From Methanosphaera sp. BMS (GTDB lineage: Archaea > Methanobacteriota > Methanobacteria > Methanobacteriales > Methanobacteriaceae), in NCBI RefSeq assembly GCF_003268005.1, contig NZ_CP014213.1:1364001-1428000 (forward strand): 64,000 nt of DNA. The letters are read 5' to 3'. The position numbers and the translations under genes are program-made. The notes under the pieces are model-generated. The model worked only from the letters and a program-made list of their open reading frames with translations. It did no database searches and was not told where the DNA came from. Of the stretch, positions 43,901 to 63,890 are shown piece by piece. The first letter of the stretch is position 1. The number at the start of each line of letters is the position of its first letter.

Positions 43901-46900
43901 GTTATGGATTGCACTTCCAATATTTGCAGTGTTATTCGTAAATACAGTCGTGTTGATGTTTAAGAGTCCGTCTTCATGATAAACTGCTCCACCACGATTA
44001 TCTGCATTGTTGAATTCTATCGTGGAGTTGGTAATGTTTAGGTTAGTACCGTTCTCAGTATTGTAGATAGCACCACCATAACTGGCATTATTATATTTTA
44101 ATGTACTGTCATTGATAAGAACATTACTGTAACAGTCCCCCATATCCTCTGTCAACTCAGATTCAGATACAGGAAGTACTGCATTAAATATTACTCCACC
44201 ACAGAATGCCGTATTATTGTTTAATGTAGAGTTTGTTATGATAATATTGGAATAGACATCCCATTTTTCATCGGATTCTGCTGCTGACTTAATTGTCTTG
44301 GAAAGACCCAGCATCTGTTCTTGAGGCATTTCCAGTTTTGCATAATTAACTATTGCACCACCCATCATCTTTGCCGTGTTGTTTACTATGGTAGCGTTAC
44401 TGATAGTCATGTTAGCATTATAATTTTCTATTGCTCCACCAAATGATGCATTGTTGTTTTCAATACGAGTATCATTTATGATTATATTACCGTACTCGTT
44501 TGAAATAGCACCGGCCTCAAATGCAGCATTATTTGTTATTGTAGAGTTTGATATGATAACGGTACCGGAATAATCCCCTTCTTCATCATCTGCCCTGTAG
44601 ATACCTAGGATAATTTTACCGTTACCAAACGTAGCATTATTGCTTAATGCTCCACCATTATCAATAGCTGTGTTATTATTCAGGACGACATTAGTCATGT
44701 TCAAAATACCATTTTTGTTATATATCGCTCCACCATTACATGTTGCATTATTGTTTTCCAGCCTAGCAGAGTCAATACTCATATAAGCATTATTGTAGAT
44801 TGCTCCACCATCAGATGTTGTACCGTTAACGTGATTACAGGTAAAGTTGGTGTTGAAAATGATTATGTCACCATCCTCATTGAATATTGCTCCACCACCA
44901 CATTCCTGGAGAACTTCATCATCGGCAATTTCTTCACCCTCAAATGACGTGCCAGTGATTGAATTATTATTAAATATAGAACCTGTAATGGTTAACATTT
45001 CATCCCAATTGATTATTGCTCCACCAGTTAATTCTGCCGTGTTCCCGGTCAGGTTACTGTCAGTTATATATGCGGTAGCATCATTATCGATTGCACCGGA
45101 ATTTCTTGCAGTGTTATTCTCAAAGGTACTATTTGTGATATTGACAATACCATAATTTTCTATTGCTCCTCCATAAGCATCTGCATTGTTATCATTAAAG
45201 TGACTGCTTATTATTGTTGCTAAGGCACCCTCCTCATTATATATTGCTCCACCTTCAACGCTTGCATTGTTATATTCGAATGTGGTATCAGCTATGCTAA
45301 GGATACTGTCATAAGTACTTTCTGTTTCTTCAGGGTTTTCCTGATTGGTTAATGTTCTTGAAGCAGATCTTGTACTATCCCATATTGGTCCGATAATTAT
45401 TTCCACGATATTTTTTATGGCTCCACCATTAGCAGATGCCGTATTGTTTTTTAATGTACTATTTGTTATAGTTAGATTACCTGAAGTTTCTATTGCTCCC
45501 CCTGATTCTGCATTGTTGTTATTTAATTCGGATTTATCTGTTATATTCATAATACCAATATTTTTTATAGCTCCACCATATACTGCATTGTTGTTGTTTA
45601 TCCTGCTGGCAATAATTGTAACGGTATTGTCAACGATTGTTTCATCATCAGCTTTAGGGATACTTGGCACAGCTACACCTTTGGCATTTCTCGTAGTTCC
45701 ATCAGATAATTCATTATTTACATTATATATTGCTCCACCAGTTCCTGCCTCGTTATAGGTCATGTTTGTATCATTAATTGTTAAGTTACCCTTATCGTTG
45801 TAGATTGCTCCACCATCCACTTCAGCGATGTTGTTGTTTAGTGTTGTGGTTTTAATCGTCAAATTACCAGAATTGTATATGGCTCCACCATTACTTCTTG
45901 CATTGTTGTTTTCAAACAGTGAATAACTGCTGATATCTAATATTCCTCCATTTGATACTGCCCCACCTCTTGATGCGGCATTGTATTTGAATGTAGCGTT
46001 ATCAAGGATTAAGTCAGCATAATTAACTATTGCTCCACCAGTAATGTCAGCGGTGTTGTATTCAAAGCTGGTGTCATTAATTGTTAATTTACCATTATTA
46101 TCTATTGCTCCACCACTCCAGTAAGCCGTATTGTTATTGAAACAACTTTCTGTTATGGTAAACGTACCATCATTTTCTAATACGCCACCACTAAAGCCTG
46201 ATGCATTGTTGTAACTGAATGTGGCTTTAGTGACATTTACAGTACCATTGTTATATATCACACCACTAGTATAGGCAGTATTGTATTCGAGAATAACATC
46301 CCTCATGGTTAAAGTACCTGTTTGGTTATTGTATATAGCTCCACCCTCATATGATGCATTGTTATGGGTTAGATTGGTATTGGTTAATGTTATCCTACCA
46401 TAATTACAATTAGTTATTGCTCCGCCGGATTCTGCTTGGTTATAGTTTAGTCTTGAATCGGTAATGGTTAAATTAGCTGATCTGTTGTTGAATATTGCTC
46501 CACCATTTTCTTTTGCGTGGTTGTTTTCCAAGGTAATATTGTTTAATGTAAGAGTACCATTATTATCTATTGCTCCTCCATCATTTGCTGTGTAATTGGT
46601 AAGTGTGATGTTTTCTAAGGTTAAACTATAACCACTGTTTACATACATGAACTGATGAACATTTATACCGTCAAGCGTAAAGCCATTTCCATTTATTGTT
46701 AAATTACGGGTACTGCCGGTTGCATCAGCCCAGGTCATACTAGCTGTTGCATTGTAATTTCCAGGCAATAAGTTAATTGTATACTTATCACAGCTGGTGG
46801 ACTTTGCATATTCAACTGCCGATACAAGAGCAGGATAACCAGATACAAGAACATCATCCCCTTCTATCTGTACATCCAGGATAAATGTGTTCATATTGAA

Positions 46901-49429
46901 TTTTGTTTGATCTAATCCGTTTACAACTAATTTAATAGGGTAAAATCCGGCAGGTAAAACATATTCATTAAGATTGTTTCCGGTATATCTTGGAGTGCTT
47001 TCATCTGCCAAGTAAATGGCATAAGTAGCATCTTCCGGGATATAATTATCATTGTTATCTAATTGGATATAATTTTCATCGTTTATTTTGTAGTTTGCTG
47101 GAGTATTATTCTCAAAGGTTGAATTTGTACAAATAATATCACTATCAGTGCTGGTATCTATTGCACCCCCAACTTCCTTATTTTGTCCTGTTGCTATGTT
47201 GTGTATGAGATTGGAGTTGTTTATGGTAATAGTATCAGCAGTGTTGTATATTGCACCCCCATGTCCTTCATTTCGTCCTGTTGCGTTGTTGTGTGTGATA
47301 TTAGAGTTGTTTATGGTAAGAGTACCACTATTGTAGTTGTATATTGCACCCCCTCGCCCAATATTTTGTCCTGTTGCTGTGTTTTGTGTGAGGTTGGAGT
47401 TGTTTATGGTAAGAGTACAACGATTGAAGTTGTATATTGCACCCCCATGTCCTCCATTTTGTCCTGTTGCGTTGTTGTGTGTGAGGTTGGAGTTGTTTAT
47501 GGTAAGAGTACCACTATTGTAGTTGTATATTGCACCCCCATATCCAGAATATGTTTGTCCTGTTGCTGTGTTGTTTGTGAAATAGGAATTGGTTATGGTA
47601 ACATTACCACCATTTATGCATATTGCACCCCCATATCCATCTCTTTGTCCTGTTGCTGTGTTGTTTGTGAAATTGGAGTTGGTTATATTAAGAGTACCAT
47701 TGTTGTATATTGCACCTCCATATCCAGGAAATATTTGTCCTGCTGCGTTGTTGTATGTGAAGTTGGAGTTGATTATATTAAGAGTACCGGTGTTGTATAT
47801 TGCACCTCCATTTCCAGGATATGATTGTCCTGTTACTGTGTTGTTTGTGAAATTGGAGTTTGTTACGGTAAGTGTATCTATGTTATATATTGCACCCCCA
47901 TATCCAATACCTTGTATTGTTGCTGTGTTATTGTCGATGTTGGAGTCTGTTATGTTAATAATTCCATTGTTGTATATTGCAGCTCCACCTCCATGTTGTC
48001 CTGATACAATGTTGAACGTGAGGTTGGAGTTGGTTATGCTAAGAGTACCATTGTTGTATATTGCACCTCCATAATCACTTGATGTGTAGTTTGTTATTGT
48101 AACACTTTCTAGTTTTAGATTGTGTCCTGATGCTATCTTGATGAATTGGTATTCTTTCTTACCGTTGAGTGTCACACCATTACCGTTAATGGTGATATTT
48201 CTTGTAGCCGAATTGCTCCAATCTATACTAACGGTTGCATCATAATCTTCTCTTGGTTGTAGGTTAATTATCATATTTATGTATTGACTCTCTTTGGCTA
48301 TATCTATTGCATTCACTAAAGCATCATACCCGTCTACATCTATCGTATCCGATATTATGTATTCATTGTTGATCCTATTTGTACCGTTTATAATTAGTTT
48401 AACTAGATGATTACCCTCTGGAATTGGAATAGTACTTAACTGTGCAGGGTTTGCATTAGTTAATTTTTCTTCACCATCTACCATTAGGGTGACTTGACTC
48501 ATGGTGATATAATTATCGTTGCTTAGTAGTTGTATATTTCTTGTCTGATTTATGATGAAGTTTGCTGGGGTATTGTTGTAGAATATTGTGTTATTTATTT
48601 CTTCAATTGAATTCTGGGAAATGTAAATTGCTCCACCATATCTGTCTGCGTGGTTGTTTGTAAATTGTGTCTCGGTCACGAATAACCCACCATAGTCATT
48701 GTAGATTGCTCCATACATATATGCGTTGTTGTCTGTAAATTGTGTACCGGTCACATTTAAAGTAGCACCAAAGTTGTAGATTGCTCCAGCTTCGGTTGCA
48801 CTGTTGCCCGTGAATTGTGTATCAATCACGGTTAAAGTACCCATCTCATTGTAGATTGCTCCCCCAAAGATGTTTGCGTTGTTGCCCGTGAATTGTGTAC
48901 CGTTCAGGGTTAAAGTACCCTCTTTCTTGTAGATTGCTCCACCATCCCCTGTAGAATTACAGTTGGTGATGGTGAGGTTGTTAATTATAACCGTATGCCC
49001 CCTACTGATTTTTAAGAATTGGTGTTGGTTGGCTCCGTTTATCGTGTTTTTTTCTCCATTGATGGTAACATATGTGGGGTTAATAGAAATACTACCAGTA
49101 AGTGTTATGTTATTTTTAATATTGACTGTTACGTCGTCATCAGAGCTTGTCAATGCCTCGTTTAACTGTTGATATGTTTCTACATTATACTCTGGTGCGG
49201 TTTTCGTGTTTTTTTCTGTTTTTGTTATCTTATTACTTTTTTGTTCTACCGTCTTTTCTTGTACATCCATTGTGGGTGTACTTTTTTCTTGTATTGCTAC
49301 TTCCACTGCTGCGGGTGTATCCGTGCTGAGTGTATCCGTTGACAGATCATTTGACACGTCACTTGCACTCACGACTCCTACCAGCAATACCAGTAGTGTA
49401 ACAAATAGTATGGTTATGATTTTTTTCAT
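40994..49429 (-). CDS. Adhesin-like protein, 2811 aa, three beta-helix blocks
   Basis: The ATG at 49429 is preferred because the signal peptide MKKIITILFVTLLVLLVGVVSA begins there; the frame extends 26 codons upstream without a better start. The leader has only a weak GATGTGA site. A charged linker (about 24-80) is followed by beta-helix region 1 (about 80-285), a linker with VDGEEKLT and VKLIINGTN, region 2 (about 400-770) made of 29-31 residue GGAIYN..NNTATGQ repeats, a second linker, and region 3 (about 925-1900) of GGAIYNN repeats. Each region opens with an ITINGNG or equivalent motif and QF(I/L/M)K/Y-type segment. Six Ig-like domains (NTKLAVKVSNSTPVN) span about 1911-2475, then the conserved C-terminal module to the end (VFFKVNGITLKDANN, FQVERSNLTL, QDRLAYTSQRNTTTKI). 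No membrane anchor. Surface adhesin-like; ligand unknown. Confidence 0.9.
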   Translation of the reverse strand: MKKIITILFVTLLVLLVGVVSASDVSNDLSTDTLSTDTPAAVEVAIQEKSTPTMDVQEKTVEQKSNKITKTEKNTKTAPEYNVETYQQLNEALTSSDDDVTVNIKNNITLTGSISINPTYVTINGEKNTINGANQHQFLKISRGHTVIINNLTITNCNSTGDGGAIYKKEGTLTLNGTQFTGNNANIFGGAIYNEMGTLTVIDTQFTGNSATEAGAIYNFGATLNVTGTQFTDNNAYMYGAIYNDYGGLFVTETQFTNNHADRYGGAIYISQNSIEEINNTIFYNNTPANFIINQTRNIQLLSNDNYITMSQVTLMVDGEEKLTNANPAQLSTIPIPEGNHLVKLIINGTNRINNEYIISDTIDVDGYDALVNAIDIAKESQYINMIINLQPREDYDATVSIDWSNSATRNITINGNGVTLNGKKEYQFIKIASGHNLKLESVTITNYTSSDYGGAIYNNGTLSITNSNLTFNIVSGQHGGGAAIYNNGIINITDSNIDNNTATIQGIGYGGAIYNIDTLTVTNSNFTNNTVTGQSYPGNGGAIYNTGTLNIINSNFTYNNAAGQIFPGYGGAIYNNGTLNITNSNFTNNTATGQRDGYGGAICINGGNVTITNSYFTNNTATGQTYSGYGGAIYNYNSGTLTINNSNLTHNNATGQNGGHGGAIYNFNRCTLTINNSNLTQNTATGQNIGRGGAIYNYNSGTLTINNSNITHNNATGRNEGHGGAIYNTADTITINNSNLIHNIATGQNKEVGGAIDTSTDSDIICTNSTFENNTPANYKINDENYIQLDNNDNYIPEDATYAIYLADESTPRYTGNNLNEYVLPAGFYPIKLVVNGLDQTKFNMNTFILDVQIEGDDVLVSGYPALVSAVEYAKSTSCDKYTINLLPGNYNATASMTWADATGSTRNLTINGNGFTLDGINVHQFMYVNSGYSLTLENITLTNYTANDGGAIDNNGTLTLNNITLENNHAKENGGAIFNNRSANLTITDSRLNYNQAESGGAITNCNYGRITLTNTNLTHNNASYEGGAIYNNQTGTLTMRDVILEYNTAYTSGVIYNNGTVNVTKATFSYNNASGFSGGVLENDGTFTITESCFNNNTAYWSGGAIDNNGKLTINDTSFEYNTADITGGAIVNYADLILDNATFKYNAASRGGAVSNGGILDISSYSLFENNNARSNGGAIYNSGNLTIKTTTLNNNIAEVDGGAIYNDKGNLTINDTNMTYNEAGTGGAIYNVNNELSDGTTRNAKGVAVPSIPKADDETIVDNTVTIIASRINNNNAVYGGAIKNIGIMNITDKSELNNNNAESGGAIETSGNLTITNSTLKNNTASANGGAIKNIVEIIIGPIWDSTRSASRTLTNQENPEETESTYDSILSIADTTFEYNNASVEGGAIYNEEGALATIISSHFNDNNADAYGGAIENYGIVNITNSTFENNTARNSGAIDNDATAYITDSNLTGNTAELTGGAIINWDEMLTITGSIFNNNSITGTSFEGEEIADDEVLQECGGGAIFNEDGDIIIFNTNFTCNHVNGTTSDGGAIYNNAYMSIDSARLENNNATCNGGAIYNKNGILNMTNVVLNNNTAIDNGGALSNNATFGNGKIILGIYRADDEEGDYSGTVIISNSTITNNAAFEAGAISNEYGNIIINDTRIENNNASFGGAIENYNANMTISNATIVNNTAKMMGGAIVNYAKLEMPQEQMLGLSKTIKSAAESDEKWDVYSNIIITNSTLNNNTAFCGGVIFNAVLPVSESELTEDMGDCYSNVLINDSTLKYNNASYGGAIYNTENGTNLNITNSTIEFNNADNRGGAVYHEDGLLNINTTVFTNNTANIGSAIHNMGNATIYNNTFKTNKAASGESAIVDESGTAEIRNNINDKTSRYYSTIYTYGDDVSIIKNIFDDGTINTTITITTNNTNPTVGDKVRITFTLKGKDGKLLSGQKLNITVDGKAYNKTTNSNGIATVDYTLASNVTKVTAKYDGYYSYNESNVTKNILAKKINTKLALTVSNATPVNNTAITVTATLTDINNKKLANQNVTLNINGKTFTNKTNANGVVTQKYTPNTTLGTQTITATYNGSDKYNSSTNSTKITVKKINTKLSVKASNTTPVNSTPINITVTLTDVDGNKLSGQNVTITVGGKTFNVKTNASGVATQSYTPSKVETQTITATYKGDSQYVNTTASTSITVKKINTKLAVKVSNSTPVNSTAITITATLTDASGNKLANQNVTINVGGKTFTNKTNTNGVVTQSYTPTKVETQTITATYKGDSKYNNSTATTNITVTKSNTKLAVKASNTSPVLNTSINITVTLTDASGNKLANQNVTLSVAGKTFNVKTNGNGVATQSYTPTKVEKQTITVTYKGDSKYNNSTATANITVKKINTKIDLKVSNSTPVNNTTITITATLTDSNNNKLANQPITLNVNGKTYNVTTNKDGVVTMSYTPTKVETQTITATFKGNGQDNNSTATTKITVQNKYNTKTVMTAASGVIGEKLIIKATVTDTNNNKVNEGNLIFKINGVTIKDNGKLSGSNNPLKVKVTNGVATATIIPDVTMKSAETIVASYIGTSIYNASVSSPANIKIAPRNASIEITTSKKVVKQGQVLTITARVYDTTNGKKSTNLTAYPDEYVFFKVNGITLKDANNQTIKVKLVNGVATINYTVPLGIAGIMDCKTMAVKNHTIVAGYYNKNYDTVSQTPTFQVERSNLTLVISNVTANNKTHKLSLKVTVRDYLGNVVEGPNKFIIKLNGFSITNGTEPMYYYSVDGILSISNIDIPVYNVYNYVEVVTQDRLAYTSQRNTTTKIKVLN
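42905..43100 (-). repeat. Ig-like unit near-identical to 51415-51610
   Basis: An Ig-like repeat that is almost the same DNA in the two shorter ALP genes. 43025-43096 is identical over 72 nt to 51538-51609, and a further stretch to its left (through gtgtagctttgagttgcc) is also identical. Confidence 0.85.
47160..48070 (-). repeat. Direct repeats of 87-93 bp in the 2811-aa ALP gene
   Basis: About ten copies of a unit encoding GGAIYN-(x)-TLTINNSNLTxNNATGQ-(x)-G. The Ala codon of GGAIY recurs every 93 bp between 47251 and 47625 and every 87-90 bp further right. Nucleotide similarity is high (tgtcctgttgctgtgttg and tgtatattgcaccccc recur). Confidence 0.8.
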
Positions 49430-49791
49430 TTTTCGTTCACATCTTTCTATTTTAATAATTTTCATAATAACATAGCATATGTTCATCTTTTCATAAAAAC
49501 TGAACATGAAATTAGATTATATGATATTAAATTTTATTCTTATTTATAATAAACCTTTTCATTTTCATAAGTCTTAGATGAATAGATGAATCCTTGGTAT
49601 TATCAGTAAAAAAAAAGTATTAGATATGTTCATGATTTTATTCTTTTCATAAGTCTTTGTGGTGTCTTTTCCCCCCGTTACAGGGGATTGAAATTTTATT
49701 AGGTATTCAAAGGCATAGATAATATGATGTTTTTGTCAAAAAAGTTTAAAAGAAGAAAAGAAGGGGGTTGAATGTCAAAAGGTATTACTTC
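49430..49791. other. Intergenic region between two ALP genes
   Basis: Carries a TTATAAATA TATA-like box on the minus strand near 49541-49551 for the left gene. It also has an isolated C/G-rich element at 49669-49695 and a direct repeat of cttttcataagtctt-like sequence near 49558 and 49643. No coding frame. Confidence 0.45.
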
Positions 49792-52700
49792 TTAATTTAC
49801 TACTCTTATCTTTGTCGTTGTGTTACGTTGTGACATATATGCTAGTCTATCCTGTGTTACGACCTCGATGTTGTTGTACTTGTTGTATACCGGTATGTCA
49901 ATATTGTTTATCGTTAGTATTCCATCAACCGAATAGTAGTACATGGCTTGTGTACCGTTTGTTATACTGTAACCGTTGACTTTTATAACAAACTTGTTAG
50001 GACCAGCCACGACGTTTCCAAGGTAATCCTTGACTGTTACCTTCAGTGATAGTTTATGTGTCTTGTTGTTTACCGTAGCATTTGCTATTTCAAGTGTAAT
50101 GTTGGATCTTTCAACCTGGAAGGTAGGAACCTGTGAAACCGTATCATAGTTCTTATTGTAGTAACCTGCTATCACCGTGTGGTTTTTAGGTGCCATGGTC
50201 GTACAATCCATTATACCAGCAATACCCAATGGTACTGTGTAGTTTATCGTTGCCACACCATTAACCAGTTTTACCTTAAGTGTCTCATTGTTGGCATCCT
50301 TTAGAGTTATTCCGTTTACCTTGAAGAAGACATATTCTCCATCATATGCTGTTAGGTTGGCGGACTTCTTACCGTTTGTCGTATCATATACCCTAGCAGT
50401 AATGGTTAACACTTGTCCCTGTTTGATTATCTTCTTGCTTAAGGTTATTTCAATCGTGGCATTTCTTGGTGATATCGTAATATTTGCAGGACTGCTTGCA
50501 GACTTGTTGTAGATATCCGTTCCGACATATGAAGCTGTAATAGTAGAGGCACTCTTCATGGACACGTCAGGTATTATCGTAGCGGTTGCCACACCATTAA
50601 CAACCTTTACTTTTAATGGGTTAGATGATCCGGACAGTTTACCGTTATCCTTGATTGTCACACCATTTATTTTGAAGATTACATTTCCATCAGTAACTTT
50701 GGCATTGTTTTGATCAAGTACCGTTGCCTTAAGTGTCAGTTTTTCACCTATTACCCCACTGGAAGGAGTCATCGTTACCTTAGTGTTGTACTTGTTTATG
50801 ACTGTTATCTTGGTTGTTGCCGTACTGTTGTTGTCCTGACTGTTTCCCTTGTATGTGGCTGTTATCGTCTGACTTTCTACCTTGGTTGGAGTATAGTTTA
50901 GCATAGCTACTCCCTCCTTATTTGTGGTTACGTTATATGTTTTACCGTTAACATTTAAAGTAACGACCTGACTGGCTAGCTTATTATTATTAGCATCTGT
51001 TAATGTAGCGGTTATACTTATCTGAGTATTGTTAACAGGCGTACTGTTTGATACCTTTAATGTGAGTTTCGTGTCAATCTTCCTGACTGTTATATTGCTT
51101 GTTGCAGTGCTACCCGTGTATTTGCTGTCACCATTGTAAGTAGCCGTAATTTTCTGTGTCTCTACCTTTGTAGGAGTATAACTTTGAATTGCCACACCAT
51201 TACTGTTTGTTTTAACCGTGTATGTTTTTCCACCAACGGTTAATGTAACGTTCTGCCCTGATAATTTGTTACCGTTTATATCTGTAAGTGTAGCCGTAAT
51301 ATTTATGGAAGTGTTAAGTGTTGGTGTAGTGTTGGATACTTTAACGGCAAGTTTTGTGTTGATTTTCTTGACTGTTATACTGGTAGTTGCTGTACTGTTA
51401 ACATATTTGCTGTCACCTTTATATGTAGCGGTTATTGTCTGTGTTTCTACCTTCGTTGGAGTGTAGCTTTGAGTTGCCACACCACTGGCATTTGTCTTAA
51501 CGTTGAACGTCTTACCACCTACGGTTATTGTAACATTCTGACCGGATAACTTGTTACCATCCACATCAGTTAATGTAACTGTTATGTTTATAGGCGTACT
51601 GTTTACCGGAGACGTGTTTGATGCCTTGACTGCCAGTTTTGTGTTAAGTTTCTTAACTGTAATATTCGCTGTTGCGGTACTGTTGTTATGTTGGCTGTCG
51701 CCTTTATATGTTGCGGTTATTGTCTGAGTTTCAACCTTGGTTGGAGTATAGCTTTGTGTAGCCACACCATTGGTGTTTGTTTTAACCGTGAATGTTTTAC
51801 CGGCAACTGTTAATGTTACATTTTGATTAGGTACTGCCTTATTATCGGCATCGGTAAGTGTAGCTGTGATAGTAATGGCAGTATTATTTACTGGTGTGCT
51901 GTTGGATACTTTGACTGCGAGTTTTGTATTGATCTTCTTGACTGTTATGGTAATTTTTGCTGAACTATTAATGTATTGATTATTTCCAGCGTATGCTGCA
52001 GTTATTGTCTGTTTTTCTACTTTGGTTGGTGTGTATGCTTGTGTTATGATACCGTTAGCATCCGTTTTAGCTGTAACATTTTTACCATTGATGTTTAGGG
52101 TTACGTTATGTCCTGATAATTTTTTACCGTTTACGTCAGTGAGTGTGGCTGTGATATTGATTGATGTATTGTTTATTGGTGTGCTGTTTGATACTTTGAG
52201 TGTTAGTTTTGTGTTTATTTTTTTAGCGTTTATATTCAGTGTTTGATTACTTACGTTATATATTCCGTTTCCTTCAAATTTTGCGGTTACTTTTGTCAGT
52301 GTTGAGTTTAATGTGTATTCAACTGTTGCAATACCGTTTGCATTTGTAGTTCTAGTATATGTTTTTCCGTCAACTGTGATTTTAAGTGTTTGACTTGCAA
52401 CTGGTGTTCTTGTTTGATTTTCTTCTAGTAGGAAGGATATCTTGACTTTATCTCCCACATAAGGGTTGGTGTTATTGGTTGATATTGTAATTGTTGTATT
52501 TACTATTCCATCATCGAATATGTTTTTAATTATGCTGACATCTTCCCCCTTGGTGTATATTGTACCGTAATAGGTTGATGTTTCATCGTTGATGTTATCT
52601 TTAATTACGGCGGTTGCCTCGTTTATTATTGCCTTGCCTTTCATGTCTGCCTTGTTGGTCTTGAAGGTATTGTTATATATTGTAGCATTACCTGTGTTGT

Positions 52701-54822
52701 TTATTGCACTTGCATTAGGAGCCGTATTATTGGTAAATACTGTTGTATTAATGTTTATTGTTCCGTTTTCATTGATTATTGCTCCACCAGTGATATCTGC
52801 ATGGTTGAATTCTATTGTAGAGTTTGTGATGTTTAGATTACTGGCGTTACTGTTAACTATTGCTCCACCATTCTTTGCCTTGTTATATTTAATTGTGGTG
52901 TCACTTATAATTACATTGCTTGTAATTTCAATTGTATCCGTAGAGCCAATCGGTGCAGTTTTCATGTTTTTTTCAAAGACAAATTCAATTTCAGGTAGTA
53001 TTACAATGCTGCTTATAGCACCTGCCTCATCAGTGGCGGTATTGTTGTTTATTGTTGAATGGGTAATTGTTAAATTTCCATTTAAATTCCCAATAGCACC
53101 TATATTACTAGCATTGTTATTTTCCAAAGTGGTATTGTTAATGGTTATATTTCCCTGTGAGTTAAAGACTGCTCCCACATTTAATGCACTGTTATTTTTT
53201 AAGGTACTGTTATCTATTGTAATAACTGCACAATTATTCATAACTTCAAAAATAAATGGAAACATACTTCCCGATTGCATCGTTTCATAAATTGGTTCAA
53301 GCGTGTTAACTATTGCCCCACCTGTTAATGCTTCATTGTTTTCTAATGTAGTATTGTTAATGTTTACAATACCCCCTTCATTGAAGATTGCTCCACCATA
53401 TTCAGCTGAGTTATCTCCTAATGTACTGTCCTTAAGGTCAATGATAACATAATCTTTTGGAGATATCGGATCATCGGATGCTGTTTTAATTGATTTCGTC
53501 CAATCTCCATACATATAAGGCATTAGATGATTGAAGATTGCACCACCCAATGGGGCCCCATTATTCTTTAATGTACTGTTTATAATTGTAATATTGGAAT
53601 AAGTATCTTCCATACCATCTTCAGATAATGCAGCCTTAATTGTATTGGAAAGTGATGGTAGAGGACCATATCCACTATCTAAGTCATTGGCTATTGCCCC
53701 ACCTGCCTTATTAGCTGTGTTGTTAATTAGGTTAGTGTCTTTTATAGTTATATTTCCAACATTGTATATTGCACCTGCTACGGTAGCATTGTTATCGGTA
53801 AAATTACATTTGACAATAGAAACATTATATTTATATGTATCATCTGCATTGTCACCTATTATGCCTGGAGTTTCTATTATACCACCATTATCTCCAATCG
53901 TATTATATAATGCTCCCCCTGTATCAGCAGTGTTATTTCTTAGGGTAACATGAGTCATGTTTAAATTACTATAATAATTGTAGATGGCTCCTCCCTTATT
54001 AGCACTGTTATGTTCTAGAGTAACATTATTTAAAGTTAGATTACCTTCCCAATTGTCTATTGCACCACCACAACTTGAATCTGCACTGTTATGTTCAAAG
54101 TAGGAGTCTGTAATAGTAAGATTACCCAAATTTTCTATTGCACCACCATCTCCACCAACGTTGTTATATGCAAATTTGGAGCCGGTAATAGTAATAACAT
54201 GATTATTCAATATTGCACCACCATAATCAGCTGTGTTATTTGTGAAGTTGGAGTCGGTTATTATCAGTGTTCCCTCATTATATATTACACCACTCCATGA
54301 TGAAGATGCATTTGTGATTGTGATGTTTTTTAGAATTAAAGTACAATCTTCACTTACCCAGAATACTTGTTGTTTTTGTCCATCAATTGTTTGTCCGTTT
54401 CCGTCAATAGTGACTTGTATATTTGGATTTTCTATAGTTATCACACCAGTACTTTCATAAGTACCCTGTTGTAATTTTATTTCTGTTGATGTTTCTAAGT
54501 TTTCAATCTTTTCCTTAAGATCAGCGTAGCTTGTTACTGTTTCAGGGTCTTGTTTAATGTCCTTGTTTGTTTCATCTTTTGTAATAGTCTTTGTTGAACT
54601 TTCTTTTATATTATCTTTTAGATTTTCATCTGTTTGTATATTATGTTTTATATTTATCTTATCTTTTACAGCATTTGTTTGTAATAATGCATGTGTATCT
54701 TGTACTATTTGTTCCTGCGTATCATCAATACTGTTTGTATCCTCCGATACTTCATTGGCATTTACTAGTCCAGCTAGCAGTACCAGTATTGAAAGAAATA
54801 GTATTATTTTTTTATATTTCAT
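49792..54822 (-). CDS. Adhesin-like protein, 1676 aa
   Basis: The frame runs from an ATG at 54822; a TTG two codons upstream is not needed. Signal peptide MKYKKIILFLSILVLLAGLVNA (cleavage near 22). A Lys/Asp/Thr-rich linker (about 23-95) with many KDN/TKDE strings precedes a beta-helix region (about 110-770) of GGAIYN/GGAIVN/GAI repeats of irregular length, with polar loops such as DGMEDTYSN and EDVSIIKNIFDDG. Six Ig-like domains (NTKLTLKVSNSTPIN) cover about 770-1335, and the C-terminal module to 1676 matches the neighbouring 2811-aa protein almost residue for residue (VFFKVNGITLKDANNET, AYMSQRNTTTKIRVVN). There is no membrane anchor. The TATA-like box TTATAAATA near 54878-54886 lies about 60 nt upstream of the start. 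It is a paralogue of the left neighbour with a reduced beta-helix region; surface adhesin-like, ligand unknown. Confidence 0.9.
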   Translation of the reverse strand: MKYKKIILFLSILVLLAGLVNANEVSEDTNSIDDTQEQIVQDTHALLQTNAVKDKINIKHNIQTDENLKDNIKESSTKTITKDETNKDIKQDPETVTSYADLKEKIENLETSTEIKLQQGTYESTGVITIENPNIQVTIDGNGQTIDGQKQQVFWVSEDCTLILKNITITNASSSWSGVIYNEGTLIITDSNFTNNTADYGGAILNNHVITITGSKFAYNNVGGDGGAIENLGNLTITDSYFEHNSADSSCGGAIDNWEGNLTLNNVTLEHNSANKGGAIYNYYSNLNMTHVTLRNNTADTGGALYNTIGDNGGIIETPGIIGDNADDTYKYNVSIVKCNFTDNNATVAGAIYNVGNITIKDTNLINNTANKAGGAIANDLDSGYGPLPSLSNTIKAALSEDGMEDTYSNITIINSTLKNNGAPLGGAIFNHLMPYMYGDWTKSIKTASDDPISPKDYVIIDLKDSTLGDNSAEYGGAIFNEGGIVNINNTTLENNEALTGGAIVNTLEPIYETMQSGSMFPFIFEVMNNCAVITIDNSTLKNNSALNVGAVFNSQGNITINNTTLENNNASNIGAIGNLNGNLTITHSTINNNTATDEAGAISSIVILPEIEFVFEKNMKTAPIGSTDTIEITSNVIISDTTIKYNKAKNGGAIVNSNASNLNITNSTIEFNHADITGGAIINENGTININTTVFTNNTAPNASAINNTGNATIYNNTFKTNKADMKGKAIINEATAVIKDNINDETSTYYGTIYTKGEDVSIIKNIFDDGIVNTTITISTNNTNPYVGDKVKISFLLEENQTRTPVASQTLKITVDGKTYTRTTNANGIATVEYTLNSTLTKVTAKFEGNGIYNVSNQTLNINAKKINTKLTLKVSNSTPINNTSINITATLTDVNGKKLSGHNVTLNINGKNVTAKTDANGIITQAYTPTKVEKQTITAAYAGNNQYINSSAKITITVKKINTKLAVKVSNSTPVNNTAITITATLTDADNKAVPNQNVTLTVAGKTFTVKTNTNGVATQSYTPTKVETQTITATYKGDSQHNNSTATANITVKKLNTKLAVKASNTSPVNSTPINITVTLTDVDGNKLSGQNVTITVGGKTFNVKTNASGVATQSYTPTKVETQTITATYKGDSKYVNSTATTSITVKKINTKLAVKVSNTTPTLNTSINITATLTDINGNKLSGQNVTLTVGGKTYTVKTNSNGVAIQSYTPTKVETQKITATYNGDSKYTGSTATSNITVRKIDTKLTLKVSNSTPVNNTQISITATLTDANNNKLASQVVTLNVNGKTYNVTTNKEGVAMLNYTPTKVESQTITATYKGNSQDNNSTATTKITVINKYNTKVTMTPSSGVIGEKLTLKATVLDQNNAKVTDGNVIFKINGVTIKDNGKLSGSSNPLKVKVVNGVATATIIPDVSMKSASTITASYVGTDIYNKSASSPANITISPRNATIEITLSKKIIKQGQVLTITARVYDTTNGKKSANLTAYDGEYVFFKVNGITLKDANNETLKVKLVNGVATINYTVPLGIAGIMDCTTMAPKNHTVIAGYYNKNYDTVSQVPTFQVERSNITLEIANATVNNKTHKLSLKVTVKDYLGNVVAGPNKFVIKVNGYSITNGTQAMYYYSVDGILTINNIDIPVYNKYNNIEVVTQDRLAYMSQRNTTTKIRVVN
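51415..51610 (-). repeat. Ig-like unit near-identical to 42905-43100
   Basis: Partner of the block in the 2811-aa ALP gene; see the 72-nt identity 51538-51609 with 43025-43096. It encodes an Ig-like repeat containing TLTDVDGNKLSGQNVTITV. Confidence 0.85.
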
Positions 54823-55535
54823 ATTCAATTACATCCATATATTTTTCTTTTTAATCGAACAATTACTGTTCTTGATTATTTATAAGTCTTTTGTATAATA
54901 TTAATTTTTCTAGTTTTTTTAAAGAATTAAAATACTTTAATTCATTCATTATATTCCCTAATAAGAGTAATTTTTCAATTATACAATAGATATATGAATA
55001 TTCTTTAATTTAATATAATTCAAAGAATGCATCCCTATTTTTTTTCATAATCTGTTGTTATACTTTGTTTTATAGTTTTCATTTTTAAAATATAATCTAT
55101 AATCACATCCATCTTTTTTCCAGTCATGATACTTTTTATCAAATGATTTTTGGATAAGTATAAAATCAAATTTAATAAAGAGGAATATATTTATAGATGA
55201 AAATCATATATAACTTTTTAGAGATAAAAAAATATTTTAACATTTAATCACCAGAATTTCATTATTATAATCCGGGTAATATTTTGTAAATAGTACCTTT
55301 CAATAATAGATAAGTGTTATTGATGGGATTATTTTTAAGGATATTTTTACTCAAGAAGTAAAACATTGCAAAAATAGCATTTTTAAAACATTACATATAC
55401 ATGTAATTGTTGATTTTTGATAGTTTAATGAGATTTGGAAAAACAGAGGAAAGAGGAAAATATTTATCATGATTTATCATAATTACATGGTAAAATCCAT
55501 AATGATACATAATGATTTTGGACCCTTTGGAAAAA

Positions 55536-57997: not shown

Positions 57998-58292
57998 TTT
58001 CTTTAATCCACCATAATCCAAGTTAAAAGTAGTACGTTATATTCTTTAACAATTATTTATTCTTTTATTATAAACTATATATGATACGTGTAATACATTT
58101 AGGTAATCAAGTAATATTTAGTTTTATAAGATATACTTTAATAAATAATTGATTAAAAGTATAATACGAAAAATGGATTTAAAGGCTTTTTTTAGGTAAT
58201 TAATACTATAACACCGTTATTTAGAAAAAAAGTAATAACAATATTTAAATAAGTATTAAAACATAATATTATTGATGTTCAATAAGTAATTA

Positions 58293-58397: not shown

Positions 58398-61300
58398 ATG
58401 AGAAAACAAGTATATCTAATAACATTCCTTGCATTATTCTTAGTAATGTTAGGTACTGTTGCTGCAGCAGATGTTACTAACGACAACACTACAATGACAA
58501 CAAGTAACGCTAATACAGTCGACAATTCAAATGTTATGGTAACTTCAGAAACACCAAATGCTGACGATAGCATTTCAGATTCTCAAGAAATTGAAACTTC
58601 CGAAAAAAATATAGACGTTAAAGTAGATTATCAATACTCAGATGATGTGAAAACAGTCACCCCTGATTTCTATATATTTTCAAACGGCAGTGAAATTAAA
58701 TTTAACAGATCAATAAATTCAAACAATGGATTTACACTTAAATTTAATGACAGTATATTAAATACCGAATACAACATCACCGCTATGACATCCGGATATA
58801 ACTCCGAAAGTAAAATAATCACTTCAACAGATAAACCAGTAACCTTTAAATTAACAGCTACTGAAGCATATAAACTCGGTAGGGATGCAACAATCGCTGC
58901 TGATAAGGTATTGAATTTCAATGGTGCTGACGATGTTTTAGTAGTAACTTCTGCAGGAGTTGCCAGATTAAACAACAAAACTACTGAAGAAGCTATTGAA
59001 GGTATCTTAAACTATGGAAGTAGCAAAATATCCTATACCGATATTTTAATGTTAAGAGATAGTGCAGTTGATCCTATTGACTTTGCATTTATTACAAAAA
59101 AAGGTAAGGATTTACAAGTTGTTGTCTATGAAAATGCTTCCCTTAAACCATCATACTTAGGAACAATTTCAAAAGACATGACCAAACAAGAGTGGAATGC
59201 CTATTTTAATGCATTAAGTGGTGAAAATGCATGGTCATTTGCTAGTTTAGCAAATGGTTGGGCAGCCGGAGTATCAAGAGAAGTACTTCAAGAGGCTGCA
59301 TTCCATGGACACATTTGTGAAGGTACACTTGGTGGATATAGTATTGTTAAAGCATTACTTCAGTATTACCCTCCAGTACAAGAAACATCTATGGGTGGAG
59401 GTTCCCCTGGAGACATAACATCCTATAAAATATTAGGAGTTCCAGGCGGATCAGATGATGATGCTGCAATGTTCTTCTTAGATGCAACTGTAGGTAAAAT
59501 AGGTTATGTTGGAATAGACACCACGGCAACAGGTGCTACCGAAAACATGATTGGATTTATCAGATGGTTTGCAAATGATAAAACCGGCGATTTAATAATC
59601 ATGACCTTTGATTCCAACAAAACCAAAGCAGATTTCACGAAAGAAACAGGAATCAACCCAGATGCAGGAAGTCTAGAAGAATTACAATATGACACTTGGT
59701 GGATTAACAAAATTAACAACCGTCCTGAAGAATTAGTAACATTCCTATATGAATTTACTAACTTAACTGAAGAACAATACTACTACTTGATGGGAACAGC
59801 TAGTGACGTAGTCCAAGATGAAGATCACAGCATACAAGCTATTGATTCACATGGATTAGACATGGAATATATCTTATCATTAAACTTACCAAAAGCTAAA
59901 AGAACAACCACAACAGCCAATGTTGGTTCTTTAAGTGACAGCCAAATGAAAAACATAGGAATAAAAGCTGCTACCAAAGGTAAAGAAATATTTGAAAAAG
60001 AATTAGGAATAGACATATTCAAAGATGACATCGACTTCGCTGTATTTACATCAGCAGGATATGTTTACTTAGAAGGCCAGGAAACTGTTTTAGTTAGAGA
60101 CGGTCTTTATGAAACATTAGGTACAAGCTTATACAGTAAAGACATGCTACAATACCATCAAGCTCTCTGGAAACCGTTATGGTTTGCATTCATCATGCGT
60201 AACCCTAACAGTGATGATGTATATGCAGCATACTTAAGATATAATCCTGACGGAACATTCTTCGTAGGAGACTTAAACGGTTCTAAAGTAGTCAATATTG
60301 GTATTGACACATTAAATAATTCTGAAAAATTAGCCGAAATCCAAAAAACGTTTATGCCCGACGGCAACTGGTTCAGTATACAAACAATTGCAAACGCTTG
60401 GAAAGCAAATCCAAACTTCGATCAGATAATGTCCTTCCTATACCACAACCACGTATGTCCAGGTGTACAACCAGGATTCTTTATAACAGATTACATACAG
60501 AAAAATTATCCATTACATGAAAATGAATCATACACATACATCGCTTCAAGTACCTACTGTAAAGATGACAGTTTAACCTACATCTTAGGCATATCCCCTG
60601 GTATGGGAACGTTTATTGTTCAAAAATTACCAAATAGCGAAACTGAATCATCATATGTTGAAGGCGGAACTGATGAAGGAGTATTAGTTGTATGGGATGA
60701 TGCTAAAAAAGTTGGTAAAGCATCAATAATCACATTCAAATGGCCAGTAGTTGATACAAGTATGTATTCTACTTCAGAAGCTAAACGTGCAACACAAATC
60801 CAGGCATTCATTGACTTAAACAAAGGTAACCCTAATGATAAAATATTGGAAGAACCTGTTGTTAAAGCTAGTGAAGAAAGATTTATCAATGAAGAACAGT
60901 TTAACTTACTTAAATCTGGTTCTGGTGACTTGAACACTATGACATTCATAAAAAATCTTCCAGTATTAACTGAAGAGGAAGTAATGGCACAAAACTCTGC
61001 AAATCAAAATGCTACAGATGACAACAACGAAAATACACAAAACAACAACACAAACAACAACCAAAACACTAATCAAAACACTAATCAAAATAACAACCAA
61101 AACACTAATCAAAATAACAACAATAATCATAGATCATCTTCCAACACAAACAGATACACAAGTTCAAGCATATCTGCATCACCAAACACAGTATCTGTAG
61201 GTACTACTGTAGCAGCAACAGCTGCTCTTGCAGAAAACACCGAAACTTCAGATAATCCTGCAGATACACAGGAAAGTCCTGAATCATCAGAAAGTCCTGA

Positions 61301-61442
61301 ACCAAACAGTGGAAAAGCTTATGAAGTATCACAAAATACGCCAACAAACAATAATTCAATGAACATATTATACTTCGCTGGATCATTAATATTAGTTGGT
61401 GGTTTAGCTGGTTATGGATTTATCAGATACAGAAAAAATTAG
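58398..61442 (+). CDS. Surface-anchored protein with two FmdE-type domains
   Basis: 1014 aa with a strong AAGGAGG site. Signal peptide 1-23 (MRKQVYLITFLALFLVMLGTVAA). Residues about 70-155 form a small beta domain. Two homologous halves follow: about 156-500, with AFHGHICEGTLGGYSI (His303, His305, Cys307), and about 512-800, with YHNHVCPGVQPGFF (His683, His685, Cys687). Both match the HGHxCPG metal-binding motif of the FmdE family, which is named after a gene near molybdenum formylmethanofuran dehydrogenase operons; its biochemical role there is not settled. Each half starts with a similar segment (FTSAGYVYLEG or VTSAGVARLNN). A Gln/Asn-rich linker (about 875-925), a Ser/Pro/Glu stretch and a C-terminal membrane helix (about 990-1009, then RYRKN) anchor it on the outside. 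With the metal-transport genes downstream, capture of a metal or metal-cofactor at the surface is inferred. Confidence 0.82.
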   Translation: MRKQVYLITFLALFLVMLGTVAAADVTNDNTTMTTSNANTVDNSNVMVTSETPNADDSISDSQEIETSEKNIDVKVDYQYSDDVKTVTPDFYIFSNGSEIKFNRSINSNNGFTLKFNDSILNTEYNITAMTSGYNSESKIITSTDKPVTFKLTATEAYKLGRDATIAADKVLNFNGADDVLVVTSAGVARLNNKTTEEAIEGILNYGSSKISYTDILMLRDSAVDPIDFAFITKKGKDLQVVVYENASLKPSYLGTISKDMTKQEWNAYFNALSGENAWSFASLANGWAAGVSREVLQEAAFHGHICEGTLGGYSIVKALLQYYPPVQETSMGGGSPGDITSYKILGVPGGSDDDAAMFFLDATVGKIGYVGIDTTATGATENMIGFIRWFANDKTGDLIIMTFDSNKTKADFTKETGINPDAGSLEELQYDTWWINKINNRPEELVTFLYEFTNLTEEQYYYLMGTASDVVQDEDHSIQAIDSHGLDMEYILSLNLPKAKRTTTTANVGSLSDSQMKNIGIKAATKGKEIFEKELGIDIFKDDIDFAVFTSAGYVYLEGQETVLVRDGLYETLGTSLYSKDMLQYHQALWKPLWFAFIMRNPNSDDVYAAYLRYNPDGTFFVGDLNGSKVVNIGIDTLNNSEKLAEIQKTFMPDGNWFSIQTIANAWKANPNFDQIMSFLYHNHVCPGVQPGFFITDYIQKNYPLHENESYTYIASSTYCKDDSLTYILGISPGMGTFIVQKLPNSETESSYVEGGTDEGVLVVWDDAKKVGKASIITFKWPVVDTSMYSTSEAKRATQIQAFIDLNKGNPNDKILEEPVVKASEERFINEEQFNLLKSGSGDLNTMTFIKNLPVLTEEEVMAQNSANQNATDDNNENTQNNNTNNNQNTNQNTNQNNNQNTNQNNNNNHRSSSNTNRYTSSSISASPNTVSVGTTVAATAALAENTETSDNPADTQESPESSESPEPNSGKAYEVSQNTPTNNNSMNILYFAGSLILVGGLAGYGFIRYRKN

Positions 61443-61507: not shown

Positions 61508-62050
61508 ATTAGATTTAATAAATATTTACTATTGACGATTATTTTTATTACAGTAATATCATTAGCTATTACTACTGTATATTCTCACCCAGGTCATGGA
61601 CATGAATATCCGGAGGAGGTATCATCTACACATAGCAGTAGTTCATATTCAAGTCATAGTGCATCATCCAGTAGTTATAAACCACAGAGTAGTTCATCAG
61701 GCAAACAATCATCATCCTCCAGCAATTACAGATCAAATGTAAAAAGTAGCAGTTCACAGTCATCAGCTAAGCAACAAGCTTCTACTACGACAAGCGGCAA
61801 TCAAAAACAAGAGGTATCCCAACAGGAATCAACCAAACAACAAACAAACAATAACAATGAAAGCGGCACGAACATTTCAGATAATGCCAGTATAAATAAT
61901 ACTACTGATAGTAACATTAGTAATAATTCAAGCCAAGACATTCAAGACGATAACTCAATGTTTTCCATTGAAAACATTATAATATTAACATTAAGCCTTA
62001 TAATAGGATTTTTAGCTATTGTATTGATAGATACTATAAGAAATAGATAG
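61508..62050 (+). CDS. His-rich secreted/anchored protein, apparent ATT start
   Basis: 180 aa if translation starts at the ATT at 61508. No ATG or in-frame GTG exists upstream of the signal peptide. A TTG at 61532 would remove all basic residues from it. A GAGGTG site at 61498-61502 is spaced 5 nt from the ATT, and RFNKYLLLTIIFITVISLAITTVYS is then a normal signal peptide. Cleavage after Ser26 would leave a mature N-terminus HPGHGHEYPEE (His27, His30, His32), a likely Ni/Co/Cu-binding end. A long Ser-rich then Gln/Asn/Thr-rich linker (about 38-150) leads to one membrane helix (about 155-174: IIILTLSLIIGFLAIVLI) and RNR. Its stop is 10 nt before the CbiM-like gene. The family is not recognised; metal delivery to the permease is inferred. 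Confidence 0.7.
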   Translation: MRFNKYLLLTIIFITVISLAITTVYSHPGHGHEYPEEVSSTHSSSSYSSHSASSSSYKPQSSSSGKQSSSSSNYRSNVKSSSSQSSAKQQASTTTSGNQKQEVSQQESTKQQTNNNNESGTNISDNASINNTTDSNISNNSSQDIQDDNSMFSIENIIILTLSLIIGFLAIVLIDTIRNR

Positions 62051-62060
62051 GAGGCATTAG

Positions 62061-62681
62061 ATGCATTTACCTGATGGAATAATTCCATTAAATCAAGCGA
62101 TTGTTTACTGGATTATATCAATTATAATCATTTCGATAGTATTCTATAAATTCTCAAAGGATGAATATAAGGAAAAGACAACCGTTGAAATAGCAATATA
62201 CTCTGTGTTTATGACAGTAATCTCTTCATTATCAATACCATCACCCTTGGGTTTACCAATACATTTTTTTACAATAGCATTACTAGTGTTTCTCATAGGC
62301 CCTTATAATGCATGCTTCGTATCATTTATAAGTCTATTATCACAAGCACTACTTTTAGGTATGGGTGGTCTCACATCATTTGGTGCAAATTTCCTGATAA
62401 TAGGAGTCGTTATTAGCATGTCCACCTATGTCATATACACCCTATTTGAAAAAATAAATAGGCAATATGCAATATTCATATCAACCATGTTTGGTATACT
62501 GCTGGCAACGATAGGCCAAATAATAGTATTACTACTTAGTAAAACAACGACCCTAATGGCATTAGCATCAACATTAATACCCTTTTATTTATTCATTTCA
62601 ATAGTTGAAGGAATATTAACAGTTATGATAGTCAATGCCATTAGCAAGATTAAACCGGAGCTGTTGAAAATAAAGATATGA
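62061..62681 (+). CDS. cbiM: CbiM-like cobalt/nickel ECF transporter component
   Basis: 206 aa, ATG preceded by AGGAGG. The N-terminus MHLPDGIIPL is the hallmark of the CbiM/NikM family, in which Met1 and His2 coordinate the transported Co(II) or Ni(II). His68 (GLPIHFF) sits where family members carry the GGTSGH histidine, though the GGT part is replaced by SPLGLP. The later motif LLLGMGGLTSFGANFLIIGVV matches the family's QALLFGDGGLTALGAN region. Five to seven membrane segments; usual length. Canonical systems add CbiN, CbiQ and the CbiO ATPase. None of these is in the window; instead a two-TM protein, a DUF2162-like protein and an ExbB-like channel follow. It may use a shared ATPase encoded elsewhere or a different energy source. 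Cobalt versus nickel cannot be decided here. Confidence 0.82.
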   Translation: MHLPDGIIPLNQAIVYWIISIIIISIVFYKFSKDEYKEKTTVEIAIYSVFMTVISSLSIPSPLGLPIHFFTIALLVFLIGPYNACFVSFISLLSQALLLGMGGLTSFGANFLIIGVVISMSTYVIYTLFEKINRQYAIFISTMFGILLATIGQIIVLLLSKTTTLMALASTLIPFYLFISIVEGILTVMIVNAISKIKPELLKIKI

Positions 62682-62691
62682 GGTGTGAAAT

Positions 62692-63174
62692 ATGAACAAT
62701 AGATTAATCAACATATTACTTATTCTCACAATATTAATGGCCAGCTTGACTGTGCTATCTGCTCATGGAGTAGATGTGACCAATGATAAGATGGTCATAG
62801 CCGATGACAATAATGGCCAACAAGTAAAGGACATAGCGGATAAAGAAAACATTAATATTAGTGTATATAAGTTTACTTCCAAAGACGAAGTGGCTCATCA
62901 ACTGGAACATATGTTAAATAATTCAAATAAACATATTCTTGTTGTAAGCTATCAGGATACTGCACAGGAATTTCTTAAAAGTCATCCGGAAGTATCCGAT
63001 AGACTGATTATTTTAAATCAATATGATGACAAGTCATTATCAGAAAATATGAAAAAAATAGCGGATAGTACAACCACAAATAGTATTGACTCAAACATAC
63101 TTATCATATCAGTTATGATAATAATCATAGTGTTAATGATAGGTGCTATACTACTATTAAAGAATAAAAAATAA
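62692..63174 (+). CDS. Two-TM protein with extracellular domain, CbiN-like position
   Basis: 160 aa with a GAGGTG site. An N-terminal hydrophobic segment (about 5-23, LINILLILTILMASLTVLS) may be a signal peptide cleaved after Ala24, leaving His25-Gly at the mature end. Residues about 27-132 are soluble and outside, with an alpha/beta pattern (DNNGQQVKDIADKENINISVYKF, NKHILVVSYQDTAQEFLKSHPEVSDRLIIL). One C-terminal helix (about 137-156) is followed by KNKK. Its place after CbiM and two-segment layout recall CbiN/NikN accessory subunits, but it is larger and I see no sequence signature. The outer domain looks like half of a Rossmann-type binding domain; a substrate-binding role is inferred only. 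It starts 10 nt after the CbiM-like stop. Confidence 0.7.
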   Translation: MNNRLINILLILTILMASLTVLSAHGVDVTNDKMVIADDNNGQQVKDIADKENINISVYKFTSKDEVAHQLEHMLNNSNKHILVVSYQDTAQEFLKSHPEVSDRLIILNQYDDKSLSENMKKIADSTTTNSIDSNILIISVMIIIIVLMIGAILLLKNKK

Positions 63175-63191
63175 AAAAAACGGAGATTACG

Positions 63192-63890
63192 ATGAATGTA
63201 ATAAGTGTAATATGGCAGATTAGTTTTATTTCTATGCTGCTTGCATTTGGAATCGAAGTGGGTATATCCTCAGGATTGAGTAAGTTAAACAGAAGATCAT
63301 TTATAATGATATGCTGTGCTTATTGTGGAGGTATATTCCTCTTAACCGAAATATTGTCCTTATTTCCAATAAGCCTTAGTGGTTTTTTAAGTGACTATAT
63401 TACGGTCATTTATGGAATTATGGCAATACTGATGATTGTTGGAGCATACAGGATAATTAAAAAATATAAAAACGATGACCATGTCTTCGATAGCATAAAG
63501 ATAGCTCATGGAATATCCATACCATGTTGTATATTCACCATGGCAATAAATATCATGGTTATACAACCAACTATTGAGTTATCAGTAAATAGGTTGAATC
63601 TTTATTCATGTGCATTGCTGCTGATAATTATGACCATTTGTTATTTAACGTCAAAATATATCGATATAATTAAAAAACCATATCCCATATTACTTAGTAA
63701 TTATATGCTACTGTTTGGTGAATATTTCATATTTACTGCATTATTCCTACCAAACATTTCAACTGCATTACAAAAAACAAGCAATATAACAATTTACTCT
63801 ATAGAGTACATGTTTATATTTATAATAATAGTTATTGGATTGATAATATTCGGTTTATTGTTGAATATTAGAAAATCGTTATTAAAATAA
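63192..63890 (+). CDS. Polytopic membrane protein, DUF2162-like putative transporter
   Basis: 232 aa; ATG with a CGGAG site 17 nt after the preceding stop. There are six or seven hydrophobic segments. The first (IWQISFISMLLAFGIEVGISSGLS) carries the acidic/Gly pattern of the DUF2162 family. A Cys pair occurs early (MICCAYCGG) and a conserved-looking Pro-Cys-Cys (HGISIPCCIFTMAINIM) in the middle, reminiscent of the Cys/Pro motifs in LysE/CcdA-type permeases. DUF2162 genes are, to my knowledge, found beside MotA/TolQ/ExbB and DUF2149 genes in methanogens, and here the next gene is ExbB-like, which supports the call. The substrate is unknown. Metal, metallophore or thiol/redox transport are alternatives. 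Confidence 0.65.
   Translation: MNVISVIWQISFISMLLAFGIEVGISSGLSKLNRRSFIMICCAYCGGIFLLTEILSLFPISLSGFLSDYITVIYGIMAILMIVGAYRIIKKYKNDDHVFDSIKIAHGISIPCCIFTMAINIMVIQPTIELSVNRLNLYSCALLLIIMTICYLTSKYIDIIKKPYPILLSNYMLLFGEYFIFTALFLPNISTALQKTSNITIYSIEYMFIFIIIVIGLIIFGLLLNIRKSLLK

Follow-up and report, generated by a model that had tools for sequence, protein, structure and literature searches.

FmdE domains are usually located inside cells. The 64,000-nucleotide stretch of the Methanosphaera sp. BMS genome analyzed here (the window; contig NZ_CP014213.1, positions 1,364,001 to 1,428,000) encodes a protein, hereafter FmdE2, in which two such domains lie between a signal peptide and a membrane anchor, raising the question of what FmdE domains would do at the cell surface. 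We propose, with a probability of about 0.62, that Methanobacteria acquire nickel by a system in which FmdE2 would be the receptor at the cell surface, a reading built on the protein sequence, the neighboring genes and a putative upstream operator. This would be the first function proposed for exported FmdE domains.

Architecture of FmdE2

The reading frame and its parts are laid out as follows, in window positions.

58398..61442, plus strand: exported tandem-FmdE protein (FmdE2), 1014 aa (ORF list, Pfam)
58398..58469, plus strand: signal peptide, about residues 1-24, MRKQVYLITFLALFLVMLGTVAAA (by eye, a hydrophobic run ending in VAAA)
58845..59273, plus strand: N-domain of unit 1, residues 150-292, without a Pfam match (hhalign E 8.7e-16 against the unit 2 N-domain)
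59301..59726, plus strand: FmdE copy 1 (PF02663; Pfam, family alignment, hhalign)
59304-59318, plus strand: His303, His305 and Cys307 of HGHICEG (residues 303-309, copy 1)
59451-59453, plus strand: Ser352 of copy 1, at the position of the fourth, Cys ligand (alignment)
59931..60425, plus strand: N-domain of unit 2, residues 512-676 (hhalign)
60444..60773, plus strand: FmdE copy 2 (PF02663; Pfam, alignment, ligands of solved FmdE)
60444-60458, plus strand: His683, His685 and Cys687 of HNHVCPG (residues 683-689, copy 2)
60558-60560, plus strand: Cys721 of copy 2, completing a His2Cys2 set (alignment)
60993..61190, plus strand: Asn/Gln-rich stalk (sequence)
61314..61328, plus strand: KAYEV box, residues 973-977, immediately N-terminal to the anchor (common to exported CobN)
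61356..61439, plus strand: C-terminal membrane anchor with basic tail (sequence)

PF02663 matches FmdE2 in two stretches (73.5 bits, the cut-off being 22.9; whole-protein E 2.3e-20); in a search of its own genome each copy alone exceeds the cut-off (E 6.3e-9 and 3.8e-11), and the two are the sole FmdE matches in the 2.87 Mb. The signal peptide, the N/Q-rich stretch and the hydrophobic C-terminal anchor can be read from the sequence itself, bearing out the original prediction of an exported tandem FmdE protein with a Gln/Asn-rich stalk and a membrane anchor, and both metal motifs stand at the residues it named. The span it had assigned, 58860-60800, lies inside the reading frame but covers only its middle. 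The two diverged FmdE copies that it described do reflect a duplication, but the repeated unit is not FmdE alone: it comprises about 350 aa, an N-domain of ~140 aa followed by FmdE, with copy 1 matching copy 2 at E 3.8e-31 and 22% identity (hhalign, split family alignment). The N-domain as a further FmdE homologue was unsupported (hhalign probabilities of 0.1-0.2%), the N-domains matching each other instead. NCBIfam gave no match to FmdE2 at 0.01. The treble-clef zinc finger found at the C-terminus of only some FmdE members had no match within the 1014 aa, unlike the cytoplasmic FmdE of locus L036, which does have one.

Of 150 Methanobacteriales genomes, 73 encode FmdE2 homologues, and within the phylum matches came from Methanobacteriales and one other family of the same class; these homologues are mutually related, so that the counts are not independent. 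Such a spread, together with the conservation of the metal triads in 40 of 42 homologues (see below), argues that the tandem FmdE architecture is not a product of chance. A tandem-FmdE protein with 80% identity to that of the window over the shared part is encoded on a contig assigned to an uncultured Clostridia metagenome-assembled genome (L004), most likely a misbinned methanogen contig.

Predicted metal sites

The solved FmdE proteins ligate their metal through His15, His17, Cys19 and Cys55, a set that binds Zn or Zn/Ni, one member having a mixture of Zn and Ni (PMC2954224). In the alignment of 42 full-length homologues, His303/His305/Cys307 are conserved in 40, and so are His683/His685/Cys687. 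Cys721 is kept in all 42, and copy 1 aligns Ser352 there; by this alignment, copy 2 has a His2Cys2 set and copy 1 a His2Cys set without the fourth Cys. Since both copies have the HxHxC triad and the P-to-E change falls outside the ligand positions, it is the fourth ligand, rather than CPG versus CEG, that distinguishes them. This supports two FmdE sites predicted to be non-equivalent, with Cys against Ser as fourth ligand; the original prediction had reached non-equivalence from the CPG/CEG difference, and only its conclusion stands. Relatives, neighboring genes and operator suggest nickel as the metal of these sites, sequence itself being unable to separate Ni, Co and Zn.

Structure prediction added little to this picture. 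The model of the two-unit region (701 aa) reached a mean pLDDT of 45.7 and a pTM of 0.31 with a 3-sequence alignment, and that of unit 2 a mean pLDDT of 57.9 and a pTM of 0.53 with a 5-sequence alignment; most homologues were left out of both alignments, and both models are too poor for placing metal sites. A Foldseek search with the unit 2 model (pLDDT 57.9) ranked 3d00 second (E 0.062) and 2gvi seventh (E 0.20), neither being significant. A profile of the whole family had no match in the PDB, and the unit 2 profile alone reached 3d00 at E 0.06.

The fmdE2 operon

FmdE2 is encoded by the first gene of an operon that continues past the window end (locus L005) with the following genes.

61532..62050, plus strand: secreted, anchored His-rich protein, predicted mature N-terminus HPGHGHEYPEE
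62061..62681, plus strand: CbiM/NikM-like ECF S-component (PF01891, E 1.3e-42)
62692..63174, plus strand: small secreted, anchored protein of no known family, predicted mature N-terminus HGVDVTN
63192..63890, plus strand: DUF2162 predicted membrane transporter (PF09930)
L005:6406-7053, past the window end: ExbB (MotA_ExbB, E 2.3e-10)
L005:7053-7388, past the window end: DUF2149, ExbD-like (E 7.7e-23)

Conservation at or above 90% applies to AHPGHG in 32 homologues of the His-rich protein, to His2 and His68 of the S-component, and to Asp26 in the membrane helix of DUF2149 (25 homologues). DUF2162 was considered as a possible thiol carrier; its Cys112 is present in just 17 of 22 sequences. Rfam returned nothing at gathering threshold on the locus, so no riboswitch was seen. 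Elsewhere in the window, one open reading frame of 9873 aa occupies 3653-33274 on the minus strand and is followed on the same strand by frames of 2837 aa (40994-49507) and 1678 aa (49792-54828), the latter with beta-helix and Ig-like repeats.

The order FmdE2, HPGHG protein, CbiM, HGVDVT protein, DUF2162, ExbB, DUF2149 is repeated in Methanosphaera and other Methanobacteriaceae; in some Methanobacteriaceae, CbiM and its partner are divergent from FmdE2. In Methanothermobacter, an exported CobN (PF02514) comes after FmdE2, together with the DUF2162-ExbB-DUF2149 trio, and FmdE2 adjoins exported CobN and this trio in several genera. Some FmdE2 genes have no CbiM or ExbB gene nearby. Mere co-occurrence with DUF2149 was discarded as weak evidence, since 134 of the 150 genomes have it. 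A 635-aa relative (L055:6780-8687, minus strand) that keeps the N-domains and has lost the FmdE metal motifs lies directly upstream of a DUF2162-ExbB-DUF2149 trio.

The genome of the window encodes four CbiM and two CbiQ proteins. The CbiM of the window adjoins neither CbiQ; the operon has no CbiQ or CbiO, both CbiQ genes being elsewhere, and no ATPase among its genes. CobN is absent from the operon, though present elsewhere in the genome, which encodes two exported-type CobN proteins; at one other locus (L116:659-10003), a DUF2162-ExbB-DUF2149 trio stands upstream of an exported CobN of 2553 aa.

A candidate NikR operator

58232..58259, no strand: candidate NikR operator GTAATAACAATATTTAAATAAGTATTAA (GTAATA-N16-TATTAC, 1 mismatch), 138 bp upstream of the fmdE2 start

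A de novo inverted-repeat search found this dyad, GTAATA-N16-TATTAC, exactly in 10 of 32 FmdE2 upstream regions; in shuffled sequences, no repeat reached more than 2. When one mismatch was allowed, 53 dyads were present in 1.02 Mb of fetched loci (4-9 expected). Among half-site spacings of 10 to 20, 16 was the commonest (53) and 19 the second (39), the others giving 5-20 and most of them ~15; GTAATA-N19-TATTAC is thus over-represented too. At up to one mismatch, the dyad stands before 27 of 49 FmdE2 genes that have the motifs, before none of 4 that lack them and before 6 of 409 other ORFs (Fisher p 1.4e-24, kinship among the sequences not being corrected for). About 45% of the motif-bearing FmdE2 genes have no such site within 300 bp, the Methanothermobacter FmdE2-CobN loci among them.

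Two of the five exact dyads in the genome of the window are intergenic, and both precede nickel-transport genes, namely NikM of a NikMN-CbiQ cluster and a NikA-like protein. Exact dyads in relatives stand before hmd, hmdC, hypA, NikA-like genes and a methyl-CoM reductase beta gene, and also before some genes without a known nickel tie; a dyad with one mismatch precedes a CobN gene (L042). One NikR is encoded in the genome of the window (L151). By its geometry and by the genes downstream, the dyad is a candidate NikR operator. One or two dyads also lie between divergent hmd and hmdC genes of Methanobacteriaceae (L190:2379-2545, L172, L187, L170) and are candidate NikR operators of this nickel-free hydrogenase.

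The operon and the dyad both bear on whether FmdE2 serves uptake at all. A surface sink or sensor for metal, guarding the cell or its wall, could well be anchored and bear His and Cys as FmdE2 does; we hold this highly improbable, as FmdE2 shares one operon with a transporter S-component, DUF2162 and an ExbB/ExbD-like motor, and the putative operator is of a repression type common to importers.

A short box before the membrane anchor

K[AS]YE[VI] directly precedes the membrane anchor in FmdE2 and exported CobN; it was found in 46 of 50 motif-bearing FmdE2 proteins with the strict pattern and in 6 of 7 CobN with a looser one. It occurred in none of 5 motif-less paralogues, in 1 of 28 HPGHG proteins and in none of 28 HGVDVT proteins. 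A third kind of anchored protein, whose gene in L130 immediately precedes ExbB-DUF2149, contains NAYEVTK. A general role of the box as a sorting signal was not supported: K[AS]YE[VIM] codons occur at 11 places in the genome, and only those of FmdE2 precede an anchor near the C-terminus. Common to dissimilar surface proteins located next to an ExbB/ExbD-like motor, the KxYEV box is reminiscent of the TonB box, and we hypothesize that it could be the coupling point of FmdE2 and CobN with that motor.

Exported tandem-FmdE paralogues that have neither HxHxC motifs nor KxYEV box nor dyad were also encountered (L052:7594-10062, L053, L130, L131, L054); several are near tungstate-type ABC transporter genes, and the one in L054 is divergent from tfx-fmdECB. 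The family name and such surroundings, which include exported FmdE2 genes near tungstate-type transporters in L038, L052 and L130, would agree with a molybdenum or tungsten protein comparable to the cytoplasmic FmdE encoded in the fmd operon. For the FmdE2 of the window we consider this very unlikely, since the paralogues at most of these Mo/W-type loci lack the three features just named and no Mo/W gene is found at the window locus.

Nickel limitation in Methanothermobacter

On the chromosome that we take to be that of M. marburgensis (G018), the exported CobN of the locus is split into exactly three open frames (L197:7867-12795, minus strand), relatives having one; DUF2162, ExbB and DUF2149 come before it, in this order, and FmdE2 after it. 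A Methanothermobacter review lists MTBMA_c10550-10570 as one chelatase. As the CobN of the locus is likewise made of three ORFs, gene order suggests that MTBMA_c10530 is the ExbB and c10580 the FmdE2 of the locus. In a 2025 proteomics study of M. marburgensis, nickel limitation raised the "transporter" MTBMA_c10530, and CobN1 and NikR1 were at high level only in this condition; FmdE2 goes unnamed in the accessible text (PMC12350162). CobN1, as described there, may be a CobN other than that of the locus. Nickel limitation also raises hmd, and according to the same review that reports this, the nickel ABC transporter of Methanothermobacter had not been identified (PMC3087415).

These data help to weigh the metal. 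Uptake of cobalt or corrinoids could be envisaged from the CbiM annotation of the S-component, the CobN partner and the high cobalt need of methanol-using methanogens. We judge it improbable: the CbiM of the window falls under every NCBIfam cut-off, hence annotation assigns it no metal, the upstream dyad is common to nickel genes, and the reported induction came with nickel limitation (PMC12350162).

The form of the nickel is a closer matter. FmdE2 might take nickel released from or held in a porphinoid, such as F430 of dead methanogens, in concert with an HmuS-like exported CobN. HmuS, a CobN relative, takes iron out of heme (PMC12583661), and several genera have FmdE2 next to an exported CobN and the DUF2162-ExbB-DUF2149 trio; the one-mismatch dyad of L042, the two exported-type CobN proteins of the window's genome and the CobN1 response would fit as well. 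The window operon, with CbiM and without CobN, instead fits free metal ions, no tetrapyrrole-binding domain was recognized, the direction of CobN (insertion or removal) is unreadable from sequence, and the reported CobN1 is not necessarily the CobN of the locus. Altogether, we regard a tetrapyrrole source as rather unlikely, though less so than cobalt.

A model for nickel acquisition

We propose the following model for FmdE2 as a nickel receptor. When nickel is scarce, the repressor NikR would leave the upstream dyad and the operon would be made. FmdE2 would be exported and anchored, as its visible signal and anchor suggest, and would hold nickel, free or chelated, at its two FmdE sites. The two small partner proteins could then hand the nickel along by their extracellular N-terminal histidines, and it would enter through the CbiM/NikM S-component, DUF2162 or both. 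The ExbB/DUF2149 pair, with the intramembrane Asp expected of an ExbD-like motor, would give force or conformational change, and the KxYEV box beside the anchor of FmdE2 may be the contact with this motor. These archaea have, to our knowledge, no outer membrane. A bolder and rather doubtful extension is an archaeal Ton-like system without one, in which the ExbB/DUF2149 motor would pull KxYEV-boxed FmdE2 and CobN, stripping nickel from chelates or tetrapyrroles for uptake.

Hydrogenases and methyl-CoM reductase, hence methane formation, are limited by nickel. The locus provides a testable answer to the unexplained "transporter" and CobN1 of M. marburgensis and to the archaeal use of HmuS/CobN homologues, described as unclear in 2025 (EMBO J; PMC12583661). 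It also puts forward a box as the possible means for an ExbB-type motor to work on surface proteins. In Methanobacterium, ExbB genes were read earlier as siderophore iron uptake (PMC10350532); for ExbB of the window type, nickel seems to us the better guess.

Comparison with known systems

Each part of this putative system recalls a known one. With the FmdE family (2GLZ, 2GVI, 3D00), FmdE2 shares the HxHxC triad in both copies and the fourth Cys in copy 2; it differs in being exported, duplicated and anchored, in its extra N-domain, in the missing fourth Cys of copy 1, in having no C-terminal zinc finger and in lying outside an fmd operon. As in NikR regulons, a 6-N16-6 inverted repeat precedes nickel genes and NikR is encoded in the genome. 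The half-site, however, is GTAATA, against GTATGA in the E. coli operator GTATGA-N16-TCATAC (PMC7055735) and GTGTTAC in the delta-proteobacterial operator GTGTTAC-N13/14-GTAACAC (PMC545781). The S-component has the N-terminal MHLPDG of the CbiMNQO/NikMNQO ECF transporters, but the operon has ExbB/DUF2149 instead of CbiQ, CbiO, NikN and CbiN.

The Bacteroidota hmuYRSTUV locus (HmuS, CobN-like de-chelatase; HmuU, ExbB; HmuV, DUF2149) has the same ExbB-DUF2149 pair (PMC12583661, PMC10434189), and together with the exported CobN of Methanothermobacter and relatives this pair recalls the HmuS-HmuU-HmuV of Bacteroides. Neither HmuY nor a TonB-dependent receptor is among the locus genes; FmdE2 is in the place of the receptor and the operator is of a nickel type. 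From the Ton system, the locus has an ExbB-type protein, an ExbD-like DUF2149 with the conserved membrane-helix Asp and a short box on surface proteins, the box here adjoining a C-terminal anchor. The particularity of the locus is thus the combination, under a nickel-type operator, of FmdE domains turned into a surface receptor, an hmu-like ExbB-DUF2149 pair and an orphan S-component.
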